Origin: a bacterium SCSIO 12643
Lineage (GTDB): Bacteria > Bacteroidota > Bacteroidia > Flavobacteriales_G > Salibacteraceae
Assembly: GCA_024398135.1 (NCBI GenBank)
Contig: CP073750.1
Coordinates: 3,224,001-3,288,000 of the forward strand
DNA length: 64,000 nucleotides
Reading direction: 5' to 3'
In this document: piece after piece, positions 5,052-48,223 of the stretch
Numbering within the stretch: position 1 is the stretch's first letter
How the letters are laid out: the number at the start of each line of letters is the position of its first letter
Translations under genes and position numbers: made by a program
Notes under the pieces: model-generated
What the model was told of the DNA's origin: nothing
Databases searched by the model: none
Seen by the model: the letters and a program-made list of their open reading frames with translations, nothing else

Positions 5052-5513
5052 ATGAAATCTAAAATTGTTATAGGATTAATTGTCATGTTAACCACACTGG
5101 TACAGGTGAGTTGGGCTCAACCTCCCGGAGGCCCTCATGGTGAGAAGAAAGAAAAGATTATGGCGATGAAGGTAGAGTTTATTACCAGTAAACTGGATCT
5201 TACGGTTGAAGAAGCCCAAAAGTTTTGGCCGGTGTATAATGAATTCGTAGCTAAAATGGATGCACTAGAGCAGAAACGTAGGCAAATGAGGCGTCAGAAT
5301 AGAGGAAAGGAATTGACTGATGCTGAGATCAATAAATTGATCGAATTTAATTTTGATATCGAGCAGGAAATCCTTGATTTAAAGCGGGAATACGACAAAA
5401 AGTTTAAGCAGGTAATTCCGGTTCAAAAAGTAGGAAAACTATATCAGGCCGAGCATGAATTTAAAAGAGAGATTCTAAAAAGACTGAAAAGAGGAGGACC
5501 TCCACCAAGATAA
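5052..5513 (+). CDS. CpxP/Spy-like periplasmic protein (third gene of the ECF operon)
   Basis: 153 residues with a signal peptide (MKSKIVIGLIVMLTTLVQVSWAQ) and a helical, highly charged mature part. The segment FITSKLDLTVEEAQKFWPVY resembles the LTxEEAxKFWP motif of Bacteroidetes Spy/CpxP-like 'sensor of ECF-sigma' proteins. It continues with long amphipathic helices and a basic tail ending in GGPPPR. Such proteins act as periplasmic chaperones or stress sensors that feed into the associated sigma/anti-sigma pair. Ten bp separate it from the membrane protein upstream. Confidence 0.8.
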   Translation: MKSKIVIGLIVMLTTLVQVSWAQPPGGPHGEKKEKIMAMKVEFITSKLDLTVEEAQKFWPVYNEFVAKMDALEQKRRQMRRQNRGKELTDAEINKLIEFNFDIEQEILDLKREYDKKFKQVIPVQKVGKLYQAEHEFKREILKRLKRGGPPPR

Positions 5514-5535
5514 ATTTTACAGACTTAAAATGAAG

Positions 5536-5574
5536 ATAGGAGAGCAGATACATTTGCTTTCCTATTTTTGTTTT
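5536..5574 (+). terminator. Intrinsic terminator ending the ECF operon, abutting the next start codon
   Basis: ATAGGAGAGCA (5536-5546) pairs with TGCTTTCCTAT (5555-5565) over 11 positions with one G-U pair and an 8-nt loop, followed by TTTTGTTTT. It ends right before the ATG at 5575, so it also forms the 5' leader of the aminotransferase gene. Confidence 0.75.
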
Positions 5575-6768
5575 ATGCCGAATTCAAAAGAGATATTTTA
5601 TAAGCATTTAGCGCAAACAACTCCTTTCCCAATTGGGATTGAAGTGGAGTCTGCGCAAGGATCCTGGTTACATGGAGTGAATGGAGAAAAATGGTTAGAT
5701 ATGATTTCCGGAGTAGCGGTTTCCAATATCGGGCACAACCACCCCAGAGTAGTGGAAGCGGTGAAAAAACAGGTTGATCAGCATATGCATTTGATGGTAT
5801 ATGGGGAATATGTTCAGAAAGTGCAATCTGATTTAGGTTATGAATTATCTCAGATTTTACCAGAGCATTTAAGTACCAGTTATTTCGTAAACTCTGGAAC
5901 AGAAGCCAATGAAGCTGCGCTAAAATTGGCGAAACGTGTGACCGGGAGAACACAATTAATCAGTTTTAAGCAATCCTATCATGGAAGTACGCATGGATCA
6001 TTGAGTGTTACCGGAAATGAGAATAAAAAATATGCTTTTAGACCGTTTTTACCGGATGTAAAGTTTTTGGATTTTAATGTATTAGAAGATTTAAAAGAGA
6101 TTTCAGATAAAACCGCAGCGGTAATCGTAGAAGTCATTCAGGGAGATGCCGGAGTAAGAGCAGCTTCACCAGAATTTATGGGCGAACTTAGGCGGGTTTG
6201 TGATCAAACTGGAACCCAGTTGATTTTTGATGAAATTCAAACGGGTATGGGACGTACCGGAAAAATGTTTGCATTTGAACATTATGGTGTCTATCCGGAT
6301 ATTCTGACACTAGCTAAAGGATTTGGAGGAGGAATGCCGATTGGGGTGATGATTTCAAGTTTTGACAAGATGAGGTTGTTGACCCACGATCCGATGTTAG
6401 GACATATTACCACATTTGGAGGACATCCGGTGAATTGTGCTGCTGCATTGGCTAATTTAAGAGTCATTCAGGACGAAATAGATTTTAATGAAGTCGAGCG
6501 TAAAGGGGCTTTGATCGAAAAAGGTTTACAACATACGGAAGTTAAAGAAATCAGACGAAAAGGAATGTTCTTTGCCGTAGATATGGATAGCTTTGAAAAG
6601 GTAAAAACCGTTGTGGATTATTGTTTGGAAAAAGGCGTATTGACCTTTTGGTTTTTATCGACCAGTTATGCTTTTAGGTTGTCGCCACCGTTAAACATTT
6701 CAGATAAGGATATCGTCTATGCATGTCAGGTCATTCAAGAAGGATTTGACCTGGCCGAAAAAGTCTAA
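5575..6768 (+). CDS. Class III aminotransferase (PLP-dependent, acetylornithine/4-aminobutyrate type)
   Basis: 397 residues from the ATG at 5575. The in-frame ATG at 5530 would start inside the terminator hairpin and adds an unlikely leader. Class III features are the NSGTEANEAALKLAKR motif, FDEIQTGMGRTGKMFAFEH, and LAKGFGGGMPIGVMIS, which carries the PLP-binding lysine; GHITTFGGHPVNCAAALAN follows. Family members move amino groups from ornithine, GABA, lysine or adenosylmethionine precursors to 2-oxoglutarate. The substrate is not determined by these motifs, and the neighbours give no pathway hint. It has no clear promoter of its own. Confidence 0.88.
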   Translation: MPNSKEIFYKHLAQTTPFPIGIEVESAQGSWLHGVNGEKWLDMISGVAVSNIGHNHPRVVEAVKKQVDQHMHLMVYGEYVQKVQSDLGYELSQILPEHLSTSYFVNSGTEANEAALKLAKRVTGRTQLISFKQSYHGSTHGSLSVTGNENKKYAFRPFLPDVKFLDFNVLEDLKEISDKTAAVIVEVIQGDAGVRAASPEFMGELRRVCDQTGTQLIFDEIQTGMGRTGKMFAFEHYGVYPDILTLAKGFGGGMPIGVMISSFDKMRLLTHDPMLGHITTFGGHPVNCAAALANLRVIQDEIDFNEVERKGALIEKGLQHTEVKEIRRKGMFFAVDMDSFEKVKTVVDYCLEKGVLTFWFLSTSYAFRLSPPLNISDKDIVYACQVIQEGFDLAEKV

Positions 6769-6780
6769 AGAAATAAAGTC

Positions 6781-7128
6781 ATGGATATAAATGTGATAGA
6801 CCAATACTTTTTGAAGTTTGAAGAACCACATCGTTCGTGTTATTTATCCCTGCGTGAAATCATCTTAAGTTTTGATGAACGTATTACAGAGCATTGGAAA
6901 TATTCAGTTCCGTTTTATTACTATAAAAAGAAGCCCTATTGCTATCTCTATCAGGATAAGAAAACCGGAGAACCTTATATAGGTATGGTCAGAGCCAATA
7001 ACATGGTGCATCCCAGTTTATATCAGGGAAACAGAAAAAAGATGAAAATCATGCGAATCGATCCTGAAAAGGACATTCCTATAGATGATTTACATGAAAT
7101 TCTGGATGCACTTAGACAGTTGTATTAG
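6781..7128 (+). CDS. DUF1801 domain-containing protein
   Basis: A 115-residue protein whose sequence (LREIILSFDERITEHWKYSVPFYYYKKKPYCYLYQD, read in parts) fits the DUF1801/YdhG-like fold, related to frataxin-like alpha/beta proteins of unknown function. The conserved parts are the hydrophobic stretch with aromatic residues in the middle and the DLHEILDALRQL helix at the end. It starts 12 bp after the aminotransferase and is probably cotranscribed. Its stop codon overlaps the stop of the convergent gene. Confidence 0.75.
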   Translation: MDINVIDQYFLKFEEPHRSCYLSLREIILSFDERITEHWKYSVPFYYYKKKPYCYLYQDKKTGEPYIGMVRANNMVHPSLYQGNRKKMKIMRIDPEKDIPIDDLHEILDALRQLY

Positions 7129-7670
7129 TTAGTTACCTGTACGGTAAGAAAGATGGCAAATTGAAGATCTTCCTCAAACTTAATATCCGGAAAATCTTCT
7201 TTTAATGCATCACCGGAAAATTTACCTGTGATTTGAATCATCACAGAAAAATCCTGAATCCCACGAATTTTAGAAATTTTAAAGTCTACAGGAATCAGAT
7301 TTTCTTCATCGCCAACAGCCACATTAATCTCATCTGTAAATTCTTCTACGGGAATAGTGGTTTTGATGCGTTCATCTAACCATGCATATTCATTCCAGAA
7401 TTGAATGGTAATATCTGCACGTTCGTTATCATCTAAAGTAGCAGGTGTGTGGTCCACAATTCTTGCATCTTGATTGTTATATTCTACACTGAGTTGCCCC
7501 AGTTCACCATTGATCAATACTTTGTTGTTTAGATTTTCAATGATTAAAGTATCATGGTTAATGATCCCGGAAATCAGAACTCTATTGGATAAATTGACAT
7601 AACTACTTTGCGCGTATAATCCGAAAGCACAGACTTGTAAGAAAAGAAATAGTATGAGTGTTTTTTTCAT
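7125..7670 (-). CDS. Secreted hypothetical protein
   Basis: 181 residues with a signal peptide (MKKTLILFLFLQVCAFGLYAQ) and a beta-rich mature domain; no family recognised. Repeated short strands with Asn and Asp (NLNNKVLINGELGQLSVEYN) suggest a small beta sandwich in the periplasm or on the surface. It is the last gene of a minus-strand run (YgjV-like, hutI, DUF547, CoA-binding), 9 bp after the CoA-binding gene. Confidence 0.65.
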   Translation of the reverse strand: MKKTLILFLFLQVCAFGLYAQSSYVNLSNRVLISGIINHDTLIIENLNNKVLINGELGQLSVEYNNQDARIVDHTPATLDDNERADITIQFWNEYAWLDERIKTTIPVEEFTDEINVAVGDEENLIPVDFKISKIRGIQDFSVMIQITGKFSGDALKEDFPDIKFEEDLQFAIFLTVQVTN

Positions 7671-39164: not shown

Positions 39165-40058
39165 TTATTTTTCAATGAATCTAGCCATTGTATTATAAAT
39201 CCAATCACTTTCTGAAAGCTGATTGAGTTGCTCTACAAGATGAGTTGGAATCTGATCAAAACCAATTAATGCGCCTGCTATTTGACCTGCAATTGAACAG
39301 TTGGTATCTGTATCGCCACCAATATCAATTAATTGCTGAAGCATGTTTTCAATGCCCAACTCAGTAACTTTATTGGCAGCAGCTAGAGCTAAGGGAATAG
39401 AATCTACCACATATCCGCTATTTCCCAAATGTCCAACTTCCTGAAGATTTTCCATATGTTGAATTTGAATCAAGCGGTCTTTAACTCGGGTATCAGGGAT
39501 TTGTTGAAGCACCATATCTATAAGGTTTCCCTTTCCTATCCATTGACCATTAAGTGCGCTACGAATAGAAATGATTACACAAAGCGCCCCAATATAGGCT
39601 TCTTCATTTTGATGGGTGATATAACAAATATCTCGGATGGTTGAATTTGAAATACGATCTACAAACGCCAATGGAGCAGCGCGCATTGCGGCACCGTTTC
39701 CGGCAGCGTATTCACCCTTGCGACCAATTTGACTCCAATGTCCTCCAAATTCTAACTCCCTTAATGCTTTTAAAGTACTGGCACCAATACCGCTTAATTT
39801 TTTGGATTGATATAGTTTTAAGAAGTGATTGGCAATGTTATCAGGATTTGCCCGTCCTAGTTCTGCAATAGACTCAATGGTTGCAAGAGTTAATTGAGTA
39901 TCATCGGTAATTTGCCATATGGGTTCTTGGGGTTCAGGTTTACCGAATGGATAAAAGGCATGATCCTCATTTTGCACTACATTTTCATAGCCACTTCCCA
40001 TCGCATCGCCAATGGCTCCGGCAATGATGCATCCTTTAAATTGGTTGGCTATGTTCAT
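39165..40058 (-). CDS. ADP-ribosylglycohydrolase family protein
   Basis: 297 residues. All motifs are in place: AGAIGDAMGSGYENVV near the start, WQITDDTQLTLATIES (metal-binding D-D), AAGNGAAMRAAPLAFV, and the C-terminal DIGGDTDTNCSIAGQIAGAL. These enzymes remove ADP-ribose from proteins or related glycosides. Substrate unknown. No ADP-ribosyltransferase is adjacent. Confidence 0.9.
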   Translation of the reverse strand: MNIANQFKGCIIAGAIGDAMGSGYENVVQNEDHAFYPFGKPEPQEPIWQITDDTQLTLATIESIAELGRANPDNIANHFLKLYQSKKLSGIGASTLKALRELEFGGHWSQIGRKGEYAAGNGAAMRAAPLAFVDRISNSTIRDICYITHQNEEAYIGALCVIISIRSALNGQWIGKGNLIDMVLQQIPDTRVKDRLIQIQHMENLQEVGHLGNSGYVVDSIPLALAAANKVTELGIENMLQQLIDIGGDTDTNCSIAGQIAGALIGFDQIPTHLVEQLNQLSESDWIYNTMARFIEK

Positions 40059-41633: not shown

Positions 41634-44537
41634 TTATTCGGCAATCCCATTTATAAAGGTTTCTACAAAATCGGTTATTCGATTAAGTATTCTATTACCT
41701 AATTTTTTCCGTTGTAATAAGCTTGGTTTTTCACCTTCAAGGAGTTCTAAAACTTCATCTCTTAGTGGTGTTTTTTCTGCAAACAGATAGTCCTCAATTA
41801 GCTTTTCGGTTTTTTCGGAAGATAGCTTTTCTTCTTCTACCAATTTGTCAAATGCCTTTTGTTGTTCTTTACTCCAGTATTTATCAAACTCAGGTACTAC
41901 TTCTTCAGAATCAGCTATTACTGGTAAATTTTCTTCAATAAATTTTTCTATCAACTCACGTTTACTTCGAAGTGTTGTTTCGGTATTAAGTAAATTAAAT
42001 ATTTCTTTCTCTGCTTTGCTTGTATCTTTTTGTGTGTCAGCTTTGAGTTTAATTAAAAGTTGGATAATGTAAGTGACATTAATTTCATCACGGTGAATCA
42101 ACTCTAATTCAAAATCAACATCTTCTAAGATAGAGACTTTTTCTTTTTGGTTATTACTTTTTACTTTGTCGTATAAATCGAGGTATTTGCTTTTATAATC
42201 TTCAAATTCTTGTTCTGACATTTGTAAGCTTTCCCAGTTAAAGTCAGAAAAAGCTGAAAGAATATTTTTAATGCGCATCAAATCACGAAATGCCTTAATA
42301 AAATTTAATTCGTCTTCTTCAGTTACTAAATCATTTACACTGTCAACTGTAGGAGCATAATTTTTTAATTGTTCAAAAGCTTCATCAAATTTAGACGCGT
42401 ATTCTTCATAAGGTTGCATTACAATTACTTCAATAGCTTCTTTATTGCTAAAGAGAGTAATTGCTTCATCTGTTCTATTTTTTAGATTTCTAAATGCTAC
42501 GATATTTCCTTGTGATTTTTGTTCATTCAAGATTCTATTTGTTCTTGAATAAGCTTGTATGAGGCCGTGGTATTGAAGATTCTTATCTACGTAAAGTGTG
42601 TTCAATGTTTTACTGTCAAAACCAGTAAGGAACATATTAACGACTAATAAGATGTCAATTTTACGCTCTTTTACTTTTTTGGAAATATCATTGTAATAGT
42701 TGTAAAAATCTTGACTATCCTTAGTACTATATTTTACACCGAAGAGTTGATTGTAATCTTCAATGTATTCGTCTAGCTTTTCTCGGGTATGTTTGCTTTT
42801 TTGATATTGCGCACTGTCTTCTGCTACGACATTAAAATCGAAACTGTCAAAGTCTTGTTCAAAGTTGATAAACCCGTTTGCATCTTTGTCAGATTCATTA
42901 GCTCCATAGCTGAAAATGGTCGCAATTTTTAAATTATGTTCACCTGCCTCTTTTTTTCTTTTAAGTATGTCATAGTACTTAATTAGAGTAGGGACACTAT
43001 TAACACAAAACATAGCTGTAAACTCTTTATTGTGTGTTTTACGATTGTGATTAGCAATGATATAATTGGTTATTTTTTCCAACCGTTTTTCATCTTCCAT
43101 CAATTCTTTAGTGTCAATGTCTTCAACTTCAATGTCTATTTCTGTTACAGAATCTTTCTTTTTATATCTGCCAACATATTCAACTGAGAATTTTAAAACG
43201 TTTTCATCTTTAATCGCATCAGTAATTACATACTTATGCAAACATTCATCAAACAGGTCTTTAGTTGTTCTGGCTATAGCTTCACTTTTGTTCGCATTTT
43301 CTTTTAATATTGGTGTTCCTGTAAAACCAAACATCTGATTGTTGCTAAAGAATTCCTTTATGCGCTTGTGCGTATCACCAAATTGGCTTCTATGGCATTC
43401 ATCAAAAATGAAAACAATTCTTTTGTCTTTCAAGTCAGCCATTTTCGCCTCATACTTTAATTTGGTGATAGCTGTATTTAGTTTTTGAATGGTGGTAACA
43501 ATCAGCTTGGAATTTTTAGATACACCTTTTTTGTCTTTATAAGTTCCAGTGAATTGTTGAACTAGGTTTTTAGTATTATCTGTTCCGTCAATGCAACCTT
43601 CACTAAAGCTATTAAATTCTTTAGTAGTTTGATAATCTAAATCTTTTCTATCCACTACAAACACCACTTTATGAACTTCTGGAAGTTTCATAATTACCTG
43701 ACTTGCTTTAAAACTGGTTAGGGTTTTTCCTGAACCTGTGGTATGCCAGATATATCCGTTTTTGGTGGAGTTCTTTACGCGATCAATAATAGCTTCTACT
43801 GCATAATATTGGTACGGACGCAAAACCATAGGGATTTTTTGTGCCTCATTCAGTACAATGTATTTACATATCATTTTACTGAGATGGCATTTTTCTAAGA
43901 ACGAATCGGTAAATCCATTAAGTATATTTGTTTCTCTTTGGTTTTCCCTATCCGTCCAAAAGAAGGTTTGTTTGAAACTTTGACTTCTGTTGTTAGCGTA
44001 ATATTTAGTATTTCTACCGTTACTAACAATAAATAGTTGAACATATTGAAATAAGGCATTACCAGAACCAAAAGAATGTCTTTGATAACGATTAATTTGA
44101 TTGAATGCTTCTTTGAGCTCTAAACCACTCCGTTTGAGCTCTATTTGAACCAAAGGCAAACCATTAATCAAAAGTGTTACATCATAACGGTTTTTGTATT
44201 TACCTTCTTGGGTAATTTGATTTGTGACCTGATATTGATTTCGACACCAATATTCTGTGTTTAGAAATTCAAAGTAAAGGTTATCTCCATTGTCTCTAAC
44301 AATGTGTTGTTTTTCTCTAAGAATTTTACTTTTCTCAAATACAGTTCCTTTACTTAAGATATTAAGTACTTTTTCAAACTCAGATTGTGAGAAAGTTATA
44401 CTGTTGTGCTTTTCTAATTGTGACTTTAAATTGATGAGCAAATCTTTTTCACTATTAATTATAGCATATTCGTAACCCAATTTTTGTAACTGAGTTATTA
44501 ACTTTTCTTCTAGTATTTGTTCCGACTGTTTACTCAT
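41634..44537 (-). CDS. hsdR: Type I restriction endonuclease subunit R
   Basis: 967 residues. The N-terminal nuclease domain carries the LPLVQIELKRSGLELKEAFN motif of the PD-(D/E)xK type (QIELKRSG). The helicase motor has Walker A (WHTTGSGKTLTSFKASQ), the DECH box (IFDECHRSQFGDTHKRIKEF), the TGTPI motif III and QAYSRTNRI motif VI. It translocates and cuts DNA when the S subunit finds an unmodified site. The start overlaps the abortive-infection gene by 8 bp, and it is the last gene of the RM operon. Confidence 0.95.
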   Translation of the reverse strand: MSKQSEQILEEKLITQLQKLGYEYAIINSEKDLLINLKSQLEKHNSITFSQSEFEKVLNILSKGTVFEKSKILREKQHIVRDNGDNLYFEFLNTEYWCRNQYQVTNQITQEGKYKNRYDVTLLINGLPLVQIELKRSGLELKEAFNQINRYQRHSFGSGNALFQYVQLFIVSNGRNTKYYANNRSQSFKQTFFWTDRENQRETNILNGFTDSFLEKCHLSKMICKYIVLNEAQKIPMVLRPYQYYAVEAIIDRVKNSTKNGYIWHTTGSGKTLTSFKASQVIMKLPEVHKVVFVVDRKDLDYQTTKEFNSFSEGCIDGTDNTKNLVQQFTGTYKDKKGVSKNSKLIVTTIQKLNTAITKLKYEAKMADLKDKRIVFIFDECHRSQFGDTHKRIKEFFSNNQMFGFTGTPILKENANKSEAIARTTKDLFDECLHKYVITDAIKDENVLKFSVEYVGRYKKKDSVTEIDIEVEDIDTKELMEDEKRLEKITNYIIANHNRKTHNKEFTAMFCVNSVPTLIKYYDILKRKKEAGEHNLKIATIFSYGANESDKDANGFINFEQDFDSFDFNVVAEDSAQYQKSKHTREKLDEYIEDYNQLFGVKYSTKDSQDFYNYYNDISKKVKERKIDILLVVNMFLTGFDSKTLNTLYVDKNLQYHGLIQAYSRTNRILNEQKSQGNIVAFRNLKNRTDEAITLFSNKEAIEVIVMQPYEEYASKFDEAFEQLKNYAPTVDSVNDLVTEEDELNFIKAFRDLMRIKNILSAFSDFNWESLQMSEQEFEDYKSKYLDLYDKVKSNNQKEKVSILEDVDFELELIHRDEINVTYIIQLLIKLKADTQKDTSKAEKEIFNLLNTETTLRSKRELIEKFIEENLPVIADSEEVVPEFDKYWSKEQQKAFDKLVEEEKLSSEKTEKLIEDYLFAEKTPLRDEVLELLEGEKPSLLQRKKLGNRILNRITDFVETFINGIAE

Positions 44538-45177
44538 CTGTTTCGGTTTCTATTGATTCTCTTTCATCAATGAATTCTTGAAGCTTTAACTCGTAGGCCA
44601 CAAAATCTTGATTAAAAAGTGCTTTGCTATAGCTTAGATATTCCTCCAATGGGAATTTCATATCTAAATCCTCGTTAAATTCTGGATTATCTTCATATTC
44701 TAGTTCCTTGGTAATTGGGATTTTGGAAAAACTGTTTAATAGATATGAAGCAAAAGAATCACTCAAAGTCATGATAAAGGAAGAAAAATGTGGAGAACTT
44801 TGAATAGGCTTCGGTGTTAATCTTCCATGAGAAATGTCTCCTCTATCATTTCTTATATTACCAAGTTGTTCTAAGGATTTAATTAAACTTTTGGAAAAAT
44901 CAGATTCAAATTCAATATCTTCTTTTTCCAACAGTTCTACAGCTTTCGAAATGGCTCTTTTGTACTTAAAATTGTCAACAATATTGAAATTCAAACTTTG
45001 ATCAATGTTTAGGATTATAAACTTTCCAAGTCCTTCCATAAGGGATTTACAGCTCTCTATCGAGATGTCAGGATTAGATTCAACGTTTTCTTCTATTTTT
45101 TCAATAATGGTGTAGTAGTAATCAATATTGAGAAAATGAGGCTCCAGTCGTTTTAATATGTCCTTTGTTAATTTCAT
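44530..45177 (-). CDS. Abortive-infection family protein with HEPN-like RX4H motif (embedded in type I RM operon)
   Basis: 215 residues with no signal peptide. Residues ~40-145 look like the Abi_C (abortive infection C-terminal) domain: SCKSLMEGLGKFII, a helical middle, LGNIRNDRGDISHGR (RN at 109-110, and R112-x4-H117). The RxxxxH pattern and preceding glycine-rich turn fit HEPN ribonucleases, so a role cutting RNA or binding nucleotides during infection is plausible. It is placed between hsdS (4 bp upstream) and hsdR (8-bp overlap), so it is encoded as part of the RM unit. Whether it is toxic is unknown. Confidence 0.8.
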   Translation of the reverse strand: MKLTKDILKRLEPHFLNIDYYYTIIEKIEENVESNPDISIESCKSLMEGLGKFIILNIDQSLNFNIVDNFKYKRAISKAVELLEKEDIEFESDFSKSLIKSLEQLGNIRNDRGDISHGRLTPKPIQSSPHFSSFIMTLSDSFASYLLNSFSKIPITKELEYEDNPEFNEDLDMKFPLEEYLSYSKALFNQDFVAYELKLQEFIDERESIETETDE

Positions 45178-45180
45178 ATT

Positions 45181-46389
45181 TTAGCAAAACATTTTTTGGA
45201 GTAATCCTTTTTTCCATTCTACTGTTTCCTGCAGCTGCTTATCTACAGCTCCTATCTTTTTATCAATAGTTGAAAGGAAGTTGGCAATTTTTATTTGTTC
45301 ATCTTTGTGGGGAAAGGGAAGTAGAATTTCTGAGAAATACTTGTAGCTAACCATCTTACCATCCCTTATGCCTTCAAGTTTCCTGTTTAATTCTTTTACG
45401 TAGCTTTCAGTTTTTAGATAATGTTTGTAGAATTGATCATCAATATCGACAAAAGGTCTCAAAACAATGTACGCTGGACTACATATGCCTTTGTAGTTAG
45501 AATACTCTATTCCTCCTTGAAAGGATCTCAAACTAATAATGAAATCACCTTTTTGAACAACTTTATAAGTACTAACACTTTTCTCGGATACTGAAATTTT
45601 ATAATTGATTAACTCTCTAGGAATGGCTCCATGTTCTTGAGTTATTGCAAGAATTGGTAAGTCTGAGTTGTGATCCTTGTCAGATATGCTTTTAAAGACC
45701 TTATTCCCATTTTTATAATTCCATTTTGGAAATTCTTTTCCTTTATCATTTTTGAATCTAATTTTTTGAGAAAACAATTTTTGAGCAACTCCTCTTTTGT
45801 ATTCTTCCAGTAGCTCTTTTTTATTCGAAAGGGAATTGATTTTGCAATCAATAACAGAAAAGAATGATGTGATTTTTTGTTGTTCTTTTGAGCTAGATGG
45901 AATATAGATTTTACCTTTTAAAAGGTCATCTGGGTCAACTGTTATGTATCGGTCGCCTACTAATACGTATTTCTTTAAAAAGTTGTTTGCTCGATTTTGA
46001 TGACTGAAATAGCAATCTAGATATGAGGGAAGAACCTTGTTTGATACCTTGAAAGTAAAATAGAGAGTTGAGAGCAATCCATCCCTTACTTTATTTGCCT
46101 TAAAAACTCCATATGGAAAATTAGAACTGATACTTTTTCCAAAAACAAAATCATTGAGTCTTGTCTTAATATAGTTTTTATGATTTACTTTATCATAAGT
46201 GTCATCTAGTAGTTCTTTTCTATCTACAATTCCATAACGAGTTGAAAGAGACAAAATATCATCAATACTAAATTCTTCGTCTCTATTATTTTCAGAAACT
46301 CTGGACATTAATTTTGATAACTGATACTTTTTATAATTGTCGGAGAATTCAAACCTAATGGCTGGAGCTATGTGTTCATTTTTACTCAT
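45181..46389 (-). CDS. hsdS: Type I restriction-modification specificity subunit S
   Basis: 402 residues with the two-halves plan of HsdS. Target recognition domain 1 lies around residues 15-165, the first conserved helical spacer includes SKEQQKITSFFSVIDCKINS and LLEEYKRGVAQKLFS, then domain 2 (~210-355) and a second spacer (KDEQIKIANFLSTIDKKIGA, EWKKGLLQKMF). The two domains define two half-sites in DNA. No second hsdS or inversion cassette is visible. Start overlaps hsdM by 8 bp. Confidence 0.93.
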   Translation of the reverse strand: MSKNEHIAPAIRFEFSDNYKKYQLSKLMSRVSENNRDEEFSIDDILSLSTRYGIVDRKELLDDTYDKVNHKNYIKTRLNDFVFGKSISSNFPYGVFKANKVRDGLLSTLYFTFKVSNKVLPSYLDCYFSHQNRANNFLKKYVLVGDRYITVDPDDLLKGKIYIPSSSKEQQKITSFFSVIDCKINSLSNKKELLEEYKRGVAQKLFSQKIRFKNDKGKEFPKWNYKNGNKVFKSISDKDHNSDLPILAITQEHGAIPRELINYKISVSEKSVSTYKVVQKGDFIISLRSFQGGIEYSNYKGICSPAYIVLRPFVDIDDQFYKHYLKTESYVKELNRKLEGIRDGKMVSYKYFSEILLPFPHKDEQIKIANFLSTIDKKIGAVDKQLQETVEWKKGLLQKMFC

Positions 46390-47983
46390 GCTTGAATGGT
46401 GTTGCTATTTTCAGTTCTACACAGAATTCTTCAATTTTTTGATCTAGATTAATCATTAATTCTTCCTCTTTGACAATCAGTTCCGCAACTTCATCAATAT
46501 TAATATCGATTTCTTCTTCATAAGTATCTACGTAACGAGGTATGTTCAAATTGTACTGATTCTTTTCAACTTCTTTTAGAGAAGCTTTGATGCTAAATTT
46601 GTCTTGCTCCTTTCTACTTTGGAAGGCATCAACAATTTTATTGATATGTTCCTCCTTTAATACATTCTGCCCTTTACCTTTTTCAAACTCATTGCTTGCA
46701 TCAATGAACAGGATGTCATCTGGATTTTCTCTACATTTTTTGAACACCAAAACACACGTTGGAATACCTGTGCCATAAAAAATGTTGCCTGGTAAACCGA
46801 TTACAGCATCTAAGTAATTTTTGTTTTCTATTAGGTAGGTTCGAATGTGTTGTTCAGCTCCTCCTCTAAATAAGACACCATGAGGAAGTACAATTGCCAT
46901 AGTCCCATTCTCAGCCAAATGATGAATCATGTGTTGAACAAAGGCGAAATCTGCTTTACTACTTGGAGCTAGTTTGCCATATTGGCTAAAACGATCATCA
47001 CTCGTAAACAATGGGTTAGCACTCCATTTTGCAGAGAATGGAGGATTAGCTACAATGGCTTCAAATTCCATGTCAATATGCTGTGGTCTCTCCAAGGTGT
47101 CTTCTTGTTTAATGTCAAACTCACGATAATGCACACCGTGCAAAATCATATTCATTCGTGCTAAGTTATATGTGGTACGGTTCATTTCTTGTCCGTAAAA
47201 ATCTCCTACATCATCTACTTCTTTTGCCACACGAAGGAGTAATGATCCCGAGCCACAAGTTGGATCATACACAGATTTAAGTTTCTGTTTACCTGTTGTT
47301 ACAATCTTTGCCAAAATCATAGAAACTTCCTGTGGTGTATAAAATTCACCTGCCTTTTTACCAGCATTACTTGCAAATTGTCCAATCAAATACTCATAGG
47401 CATCTCCTAGTACATCTAGTTCAGTATGTTCTAATTTGAAATCAATTTTATCAAGATGAGTTAAAACTTTGGCAATAATGGTATTTCGAGCTTCAGGAGT
47501 TTTGCCTAGTTTGGTACTGTTTAAGTCCATGTCCTCAAAGAGATTGTCAAAATCTTCTTCACTATCAGTACCCATAGTACTCAATTGAATATTGAGTAAT
47601 ATTTTTTGAACATCTTCTAATATGAAGCCTGTTTTTTCTTCATCAAAATGATCGTCTTCATTGTTTTCTCCTTTACCTCTTACAGCTACTTCAGAAAACA
47701 ATTCTTCAGGTTTTAAGAAGTAACCTAGCTGTTCTAATGCTTCTTCTTTGATGGCTTTCAAATATTCATCAAAGTCAGGCATTGAAGGGTTTATCTGTCG
47801 AAATTTTATTTTGTCTTGTTTCAAGATTTCGTTGGCGAAAATTTCCATCTTTTCACTCAGATACTTGTAGAAAATGAATCCTAATATGTAATCACGGAAT
47901 TCATCCGCATTCATTTTACCTCTTAACGTATCAGCAATATTCCAAAGTTGCTGTTTCAATATTTTCTTATGGTCTTCAGACAT
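46382..47983 (-). CDS. hsdM: Type I restriction-modification DNA adenine methyltransferase subunit M
   Basis: 533 residues from the ATG at 47983 (the frame extends to a TTG at 48010, but MSEDHKKILKQQLWNIADTL is the family start). N-terminal helical region, then the SAM-binding motif I VYDPTCGSGSLLLRVAKEV and the catalytic motif IV VANPPFSAKW, with GKKAGEFYTPQEVSMILAKI between. It methylates adenine in the target site. Follows the XRE regulator gene at 30 bp. Confidence 0.95.
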   Translation of the reverse strand: MSEDHKKILKQQLWNIADTLRGKMNADEFRDYILGFIFYKYLSEKMEIFANEILKQDKIKFRQINPSMPDFDEYLKAIKEEALEQLGYFLKPEELFSEVAVRGKGENNEDDHFDEEKTGFILEDVQKILLNIQLSTMGTDSEEDFDNLFEDMDLNSTKLGKTPEARNTIIAKVLTHLDKIDFKLEHTELDVLGDAYEYLIGQFASNAGKKAGEFYTPQEVSMILAKIVTTGKQKLKSVYDPTCGSGSLLLRVAKEVDDVGDFYGQEMNRTTYNLARMNMILHGVHYREFDIKQEDTLERPQHIDMEFEAIVANPPFSAKWSANPLFTSDDRFSQYGKLAPSSKADFAFVQHMIHHLAENGTMAIVLPHGVLFRGGAEQHIRTYLIENKNYLDAVIGLPGNIFYGTGIPTCVLVFKKCRENPDDILFIDASNEFEKGKGQNVLKEEHINKIVDAFQSRKEQDKFSIKASLKEVEKNQYNLNIPRYVDTYEEEIDINIDEVAELIVKEEELMINLDQKIEEFCVELKIATPFKHE

Positions 47984-48013
47984 TATTTGTTTTCTTTTTA
48001 CTAATTCCAAATA

Positions 48014-48223
48014 CTAATTTCTTGTTGATACTAGTAATTCTCTTACGTCTATGTCTAACACTTTGGCTATGTGAAATAGGGTTTCAACCCTTGGTTGCAT
48101 TTCATTTCTACACCATTTGGAAACAGTTGTTCTGTTCATTTCCAGTTGGTCAGCAAGCCAATTATTTGTTTTCCCTTGTTCCGCTAAAACTGCTTTTATC
48201 CTGTTATAAACTTCTTTATCCAT
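48014..48223 (-). CDS. XRE-family helix-turn-helix regulator of the RM operon
   Basis: 69 residues, basically one Cro/C1-type helix-turn-helix: IKAVLAEQGKTNNWLADQL, then EMNRTTVSKWCRNEMQPR and VETLFHIAKVLDIDVRELL. Small regulators of this type head type I RM operons and probably time methylase and nuclease expression. Promoter at 48247-48254 with a possible operator (48243-48261). Confidence 0.9.
   Translation of the reverse strand: MDKEVYNRIKAVLAEQGKTNNWLADQLEMNRTTVSKWCRNEMQPRVETLFHIAKVLDIDVRELLVSTRN

Follow-up and report, generated by a model that had tools for sequence, protein, structure and literature searches.

What does a gene for a putative abortive-infection protein do between hsdS and hsdR of a type I restriction-modification (R-M) operon, and is its product, here called X, tied to the enzyme encoded around it? 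The locus lies in a 64,000-nucleotide stretch of the SCSIO 12643 genome, referred to as the window.

Organization of the operon

ORF calls place the whole operon on the minus strand in the order XRE-hsdM-hsdS-X-hsdR, with the hsd subunits identified by Pfam, NCBIfam and PADLOC. A first-pass annotation of the window had described this order, with a 3-bp gap and an 8-bp overlap, and the ORF coordinates bear it out: 3 bp separate hsdS from X, and X overlaps hsdR by 8 bp (ATGAGTAA). The features are as follows.

48014–48223, minus strand: XRE-family HTH (HTH_3) protein, probable operon regulator (PF01381)
46382–48010, minus strand: hsdM (PF02384, PF12161, TIGR00497)
45181–46389, minus strand: hsdS (PF01420, two stretches)
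44530–45177, minus strand: X, 215-aa Abi_C/AbiJ-type HEPN protein with a C-terminal acidic tail, ATG start (PF14355; AF2 model; S-X-R homologues)
44713–45177, minus strand: HEPN part of X, residues 1–155, helices to residue 151 (AF2; Foldseek)
44827–44853, minus strand: putative RNase motif R109-N110-x6-H117, at the end of helix 94–112 and in the next loop (alignment)
44551–44709, minus strand: acidic C-terminal tail module of X, residues 157–209, proposed docking element (AF2 helices; conservation; recurrence elsewhere)
41634–44537, minus strand: hsdR, 967 aa, EcoR124-type (PF12008, PF18766, PF04313; TIGR00348)

The genome holds one copy of X. The GC content of the operon is 32.2%, compared with 37.1% for the remaining window, which fits its foreign acquisition.

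X is probably a HEPN ribonuclease

The first-pass annotation had likened X to Abi_C proteins, and a Pfam profile search agrees: residues 93–147 match positions 30–82 of the 83-position Abi_C profile (PF14355) with 27.7 bits, exceeding the curated gathering cut-off of 24. The AF2 model, built from an alignment of four sequences, is a helix bundle (mean pLDDT 80, pTM 0.65) with helices at residues 2–11, 19–34, 36–58, 72–85, 94–112 and 129–151 of the HEPN part. In Foldseek, the sole high-probability PDB match was the HEPN domain of sacsin (3o10; probability 0.99, TMt 0.65), albeit with an E-value of 0.26; helix bundle and match together favor the HEPN-like fold expected earlier. X itself has no PADLOC match, and the PADLOC AbiJ model PDLC02347 matches its homologues L011 (5.5e-8), L036 and L120, as well as tail-less Abi_C proteins. 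Sequence searches of the PDB with X, its profile and its tail found no relatives, phage records contained no match to X, and a fold search of viral structures gave no clear match. Abi_C is the sole domain that Pfam finds in the 215 residues, and with no ABC ATPase domain X does not share the domain composition of PrrC. Sequence and model thus point to X as a probable RNA-cutting HEPN protein of the AbiJ/Abi_C type.

An alignment of 15 homologues shows R109, N110, S116, H117 and G118 to be invariant, whereas position 112 varies among R, I, V and Y. The R-x4-H pair proposed in the first-pass annotation (R112/H117) therefore stands with respect to its histidine but not its arginine, the conserved arginine being R109; an R112A mutant, as proposed there, would miss the active site, and R109 is the right residue for an active-site mutant. 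In the AF2 model R109 ends helix 94–112 and H117 lies in the following loop (residues 113–122 form the lowest-confidence region of the model), and HEPN RNases carry their motif at the corresponding place (Anantharaman et al., 2013; PMC3710099). The position fits the canonical HEPN R-x4-6-H at the end of helix 3, but the spacing in X, R109-x7-H117, is longer. The x7 spacing recurs in every tail-bearing homologue examined except the cyanobacterial L120, which has R-x4-H (RNAFSHG), and this canonical spacing points to R109 and H117 as the likely HEPN pair. The motif residues R, N, S, H and G are unchanged across 27–50% identity and three phyla. Tail-less Abi_C/AbiJ proteins mostly have R-x6-H, also with RN...HG.

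R-x7-H was considered as a marker of R-M residence in its own right and was dropped, since L120 combines x4 with a tail in S-X-R order, and x7 also occurs in L118 and in the Streptomyces L131, neither of which has a tail or R-M genes. A single origin of all R-x7-H proteins is compatible with the data without these establishing common origin (p-AU 0.21). The HEPN part of L118 (7171–7764, minus strand) is almost identical to that of L046, which resides in an R-M operon; L118 ends straight after this part, with no tail, and lies next to genes for a reverse transcriptase and an ImmA-type peptidase, with no hsd genes.

Homologues of X occupy the same slot

Sequence searches blind to gene context turned up homologues in Bacteroidota, Pseudomonadota and Cyanobacteriota whose genes have hsdS and hsdR as immediate neighbors. 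S-X-R order with spacing of at most 17 nt was found in 12 of the 13 homologous loci measured, a recurrence that argues against chance. Full-tail homologues in this position come from Flavobacterium (L001) and six other Bacteroidota genomes (L032, L047–L050, L097), from Sinorhizobium, Acinetobacter and Paraburkholderia plasmids (L007–L011), from Picosynechococcus (L120, Cyanobacteriota), and from the viral contigs L062 and L064, the latter with a 303-aa gene between X and hsdR.

On a further viral contig (L063, 8001–8661), the X homologue in the same slot is broken by a frameshift, and hsdM, hsdS and hsdR are intact, which implies that the type I enzyme works without need of X.

Four loci (L036, L038, L039, L046) keep only the latter half of the tail motif, at 8.5–17 bits by the tail model; all are in type I operons, three of them beside an AAA_13 ATPase gene. 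In L036 (6110–9150), L038 (6957–10006) and L039 (4342–7382) Abi_C is immediately followed by AAA_13, of the PrrC/RloC-type ATPase family, downstream of a type I hsdS.

Full-tail Abi_C proteins were thus all found in type I operons, whereas tail-less ones almost never were: among about 26 tail-less loci, only L043 (between hsdS and hsdR), L041 (after an hsdM-like gene) and L127 (after hsdR) are so placed. Fisher's test (14/14 with tail versus 1/26 without) gives p ~6e-10, a value that serves as a guide only because the groups were merged by eye, include partial tails and count related sequences. Distances between X proteins correlate with those of HsdR (r = 0.85) and HsdM (r = 0.81), a comparison that does not favor HsdR over HsdM as the partner of X.

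Seen from hsdR, the slot is variable. About 27 EcoR124-like hsdR genes with at least 56% identity to that of the window were collected from 395 Bacteroidota genomes; X lies upstream in three (the window's own, L083 and L089) and hsdS directly upstream in six, and the remaining slots hold an integrase with an inverted hsdS, RhuM-Fic, Fic, RloB, Y1-transposase-like or unknown genes. The first-pass annotation had called X fixed between hsdS and hsdR, which holds for tail-bearing X, always in the slot, but not for the slot, given that only 3 of ~27 close hsdR operons carry X: the slot is variable, yet X is loyal to it. The S-R site has been described as a possible hotspot at which defence systems recombine (PMC12255303). 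Related operons with an integrase in the slot are L067 (Pfam-confirmed), L068, L079, L084 and L087; some have part of an hsdS on the other strand, which probably reflects phase-variable specificity.

The acidic tail recurs on unrelated proteins

After the HEPN bundle, AF2 predicts three short helices (residues 165–174, 183–190 and 192–212) in a tail of residues ~157–209, with N168, D172, S184, L187 and Y195 conserved in the alignment. The net charge is about −14 over residues 161–215, compared with −5 for the HEPN part. The tail matches no Pfam family; kinship with ribosomal protein uL18 was considered, and its weak matches (E 0.18 and above) were taken as chance.

The X profile, in a search ignorant of operon context, also matched two proteins with unrelated main domains (in L044 and L045), by their tail region only; neither had been in the profile when it was built. 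Per-genome E-values were 1.4e-6 and 1.9e-5, and a tail-only model made from 15 Abi_C proteins gave 5e-5 and 7e-4 when the search space was set to the sample's estimated 8 million ORFs. Both matches fall in type I operons. The L044 protein (6445–7449, plus strand; 334 aa) is encoded between hsdS and hsdR and carries the tail module at its N terminus (residues ~7–56); it has no Pfam or PADLOC match, and its RNGFEH stretch (R-x4-H) suggests a different HEPN-like domain. In L045 (~5287–6444, minus strand), directly after the hsdS of an R-M-S operon, the module lies in frame ahead of a SIR2_2 protein (best PADLOC match ThsA), interrupted by one in-frame TAG. A tail search of the 395 genomes gave eight strong matches, profile members among them, all eight lying beside type I operon genes; one new S-X-R locus came from another search of a genus.

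The hsdR genes that accompany the tail fall into three families by their C-terminal domain (EcoR124_C, T1RH-like_C and EcoEI_R_C), which makes that domain unlikely as the partner of the tail. These ~50 residues could be a portable adaptor that plugs Abi_C HEPN proteins, the 334-aa RNGFEH protein and SIR2 into type I complexes, a reading we propose tentatively and rate somewhat below an even chance; if it is true, type I enzymes would be sensor platforms with exchangeable suicide effectors.

A proposed mechanism and its alternatives

We propose, with a probability of roughly 50%, that X, a member of the AbiJ/Abi_C family, is a latent HEPN endoribonuclease that needs no metal and docks on the type I enzyme through its tail. 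X would be translated from the enzyme's own polycistronic message, held on the enzyme by the acidic tail and kept inactive as long as the M2S1/R complex stays together; once a phage inhibitor or a failure of restriction disturbed the complex, X would be released or activated, cleave RNA and abort the infection, in the manner of PrrC and EcoprrI. The gene for PrrC, a suicide RNase, lies within a type IC operon; the type I enzyme sequesters the protein and sets it free on attack by phage T4 (PMC3874165, PMC2610378). Since X lacks the ABC ATPase of PrrC, sensing would fall to the type I enzyme. The coupled second line of defence suggested by the first-pass annotation is plausible, and for this class it has been put forward before, with PrrC and with AbiJ solos of R-M operons. 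Weighing against the tail-docked model are the x7 spacing outside the x4-6 range, the E-value of 0.26 for the HEPN match, the lack of X in most related hsdR operons, the frame-broken X of L063 and the HsdR-independent action of the embedded TgvAB (PMC11411939).

X might instead be an abortive-infection RNase that acts on its own and has only the operon in common with the enzyme, with the S-R junction a hotspot for defence cargo and the tail serving an internal role such as dimerization or phage sensing. The many unrelated slot genes (integrase, RhuM-Fic, Fic, RloB, Y1-transposase-like) are in keeping with this, as are DarTG2 and other pairs between hsdS and hsdR at the potential recombination hotspot (PMC12255303) and the HsdR-independent defence by TgvAB (PMC11411939). 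Because TgvAB works without HsdR, independent action is the main rival; we nevertheless rate it below the tail-docked model, as the full tail was found at type I operons only and on differing main domains, which a sensor internal to X would not predict, and tail-less Abi_C proteins lie mostly outside such operons.

An addiction role, in which X is a toxin, the methylase complex acts as antitoxin via the tail, operon loss kills the cell and phage defence is secondary, would account for the strict co-inheritance and tight translational coupling, the frequent plasmid location and the low GC content of the operon (32.2% versus 37.1%). It shares its sequence expectations with the tail-docked model, however, and the frame-broken X in the intact L063 operon indicates that loss of X is tolerated, as expected of a toxin under either model; we judge this role improbable. 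That X is a catalytically dead or non-toxic HEPN-fold RNA-binding or structural subunit that modulates how the type I enzyme assembles or works is very improbable: R-x7-H is one residue beyond the canonical range and loop 113–122 is the least confident part of the AF2 model, but R, N, S, H and G are invariant at 27–50% identity in three phyla, including the homologue with canonical R-x4-H.

Relation to known systems

Published precedents exist for HEPN/AbiJ genes within R-M operons, for a type I operon that encodes PrrC and for DarTG2 between hsdS and hsdR. The AbiJ-family HEPN 'solos' of R-M operons, for which functional coupling with R-M has been proposed, resemble X in being AbiJ/Abi_C-type HEPN proteins without an N-terminal sensor domain; in contrast to X, with its tail and longer R-x7-H loop, no C-terminal tail or fixed S-R position is described for them in the accessible text (Anantharaman et al., 2013; PMC3710099). 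DarTG2 of the RRDM island, with a small regulator first, is a second defence module in the same S-R slot, and TgvAB is one inside a type I operon of Vibrio cholerae that acts independently of HsdR; both are effectors unrelated to X, and the accessible texts describe no common tail (PMC12255303, PMC11411939). Tail-less Abi_C/AbiJ abortive-infection proteins share the Abi_C domain and RN...HG with X but lack the tail, mostly have R-x6-H and mostly lie outside type I operons.

EcoprrI (prrABCD) shares with X a latent RNase gene in an hsd operon, there of type IC, and a proposed inhibition by the type I complex; PrrC has its own ABC ATPase and an R-x3-E...H triad, whereas X is a 215-aa solo HEPN protein with a docking-like tail. 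To our knowledge, PrrC is the one worked-out case of a type I enzyme restraining a suicide RNase. If the proposed mechanism is true, X would be a second, structurally unrelated solution with a recognizable docking tail, and coupling would have evolved more than once.

New here is a separate acidic helical tail outside Pfam, tied to type I operons and grafted onto unrelated effectors; neither the tail nor its grafting was found mentioned in the literature searched, from which most subscription journals fall outside. The tail may act as a plug joining back-up defences to the type I enzyme, and its short sequence signature can be used to look for more effectors.

Close to the operon, the window also contains a 297-aa ORF (39165–40058, minus strand) whose sequence looks ADP-ribosylglycohydrolase-like by eye.
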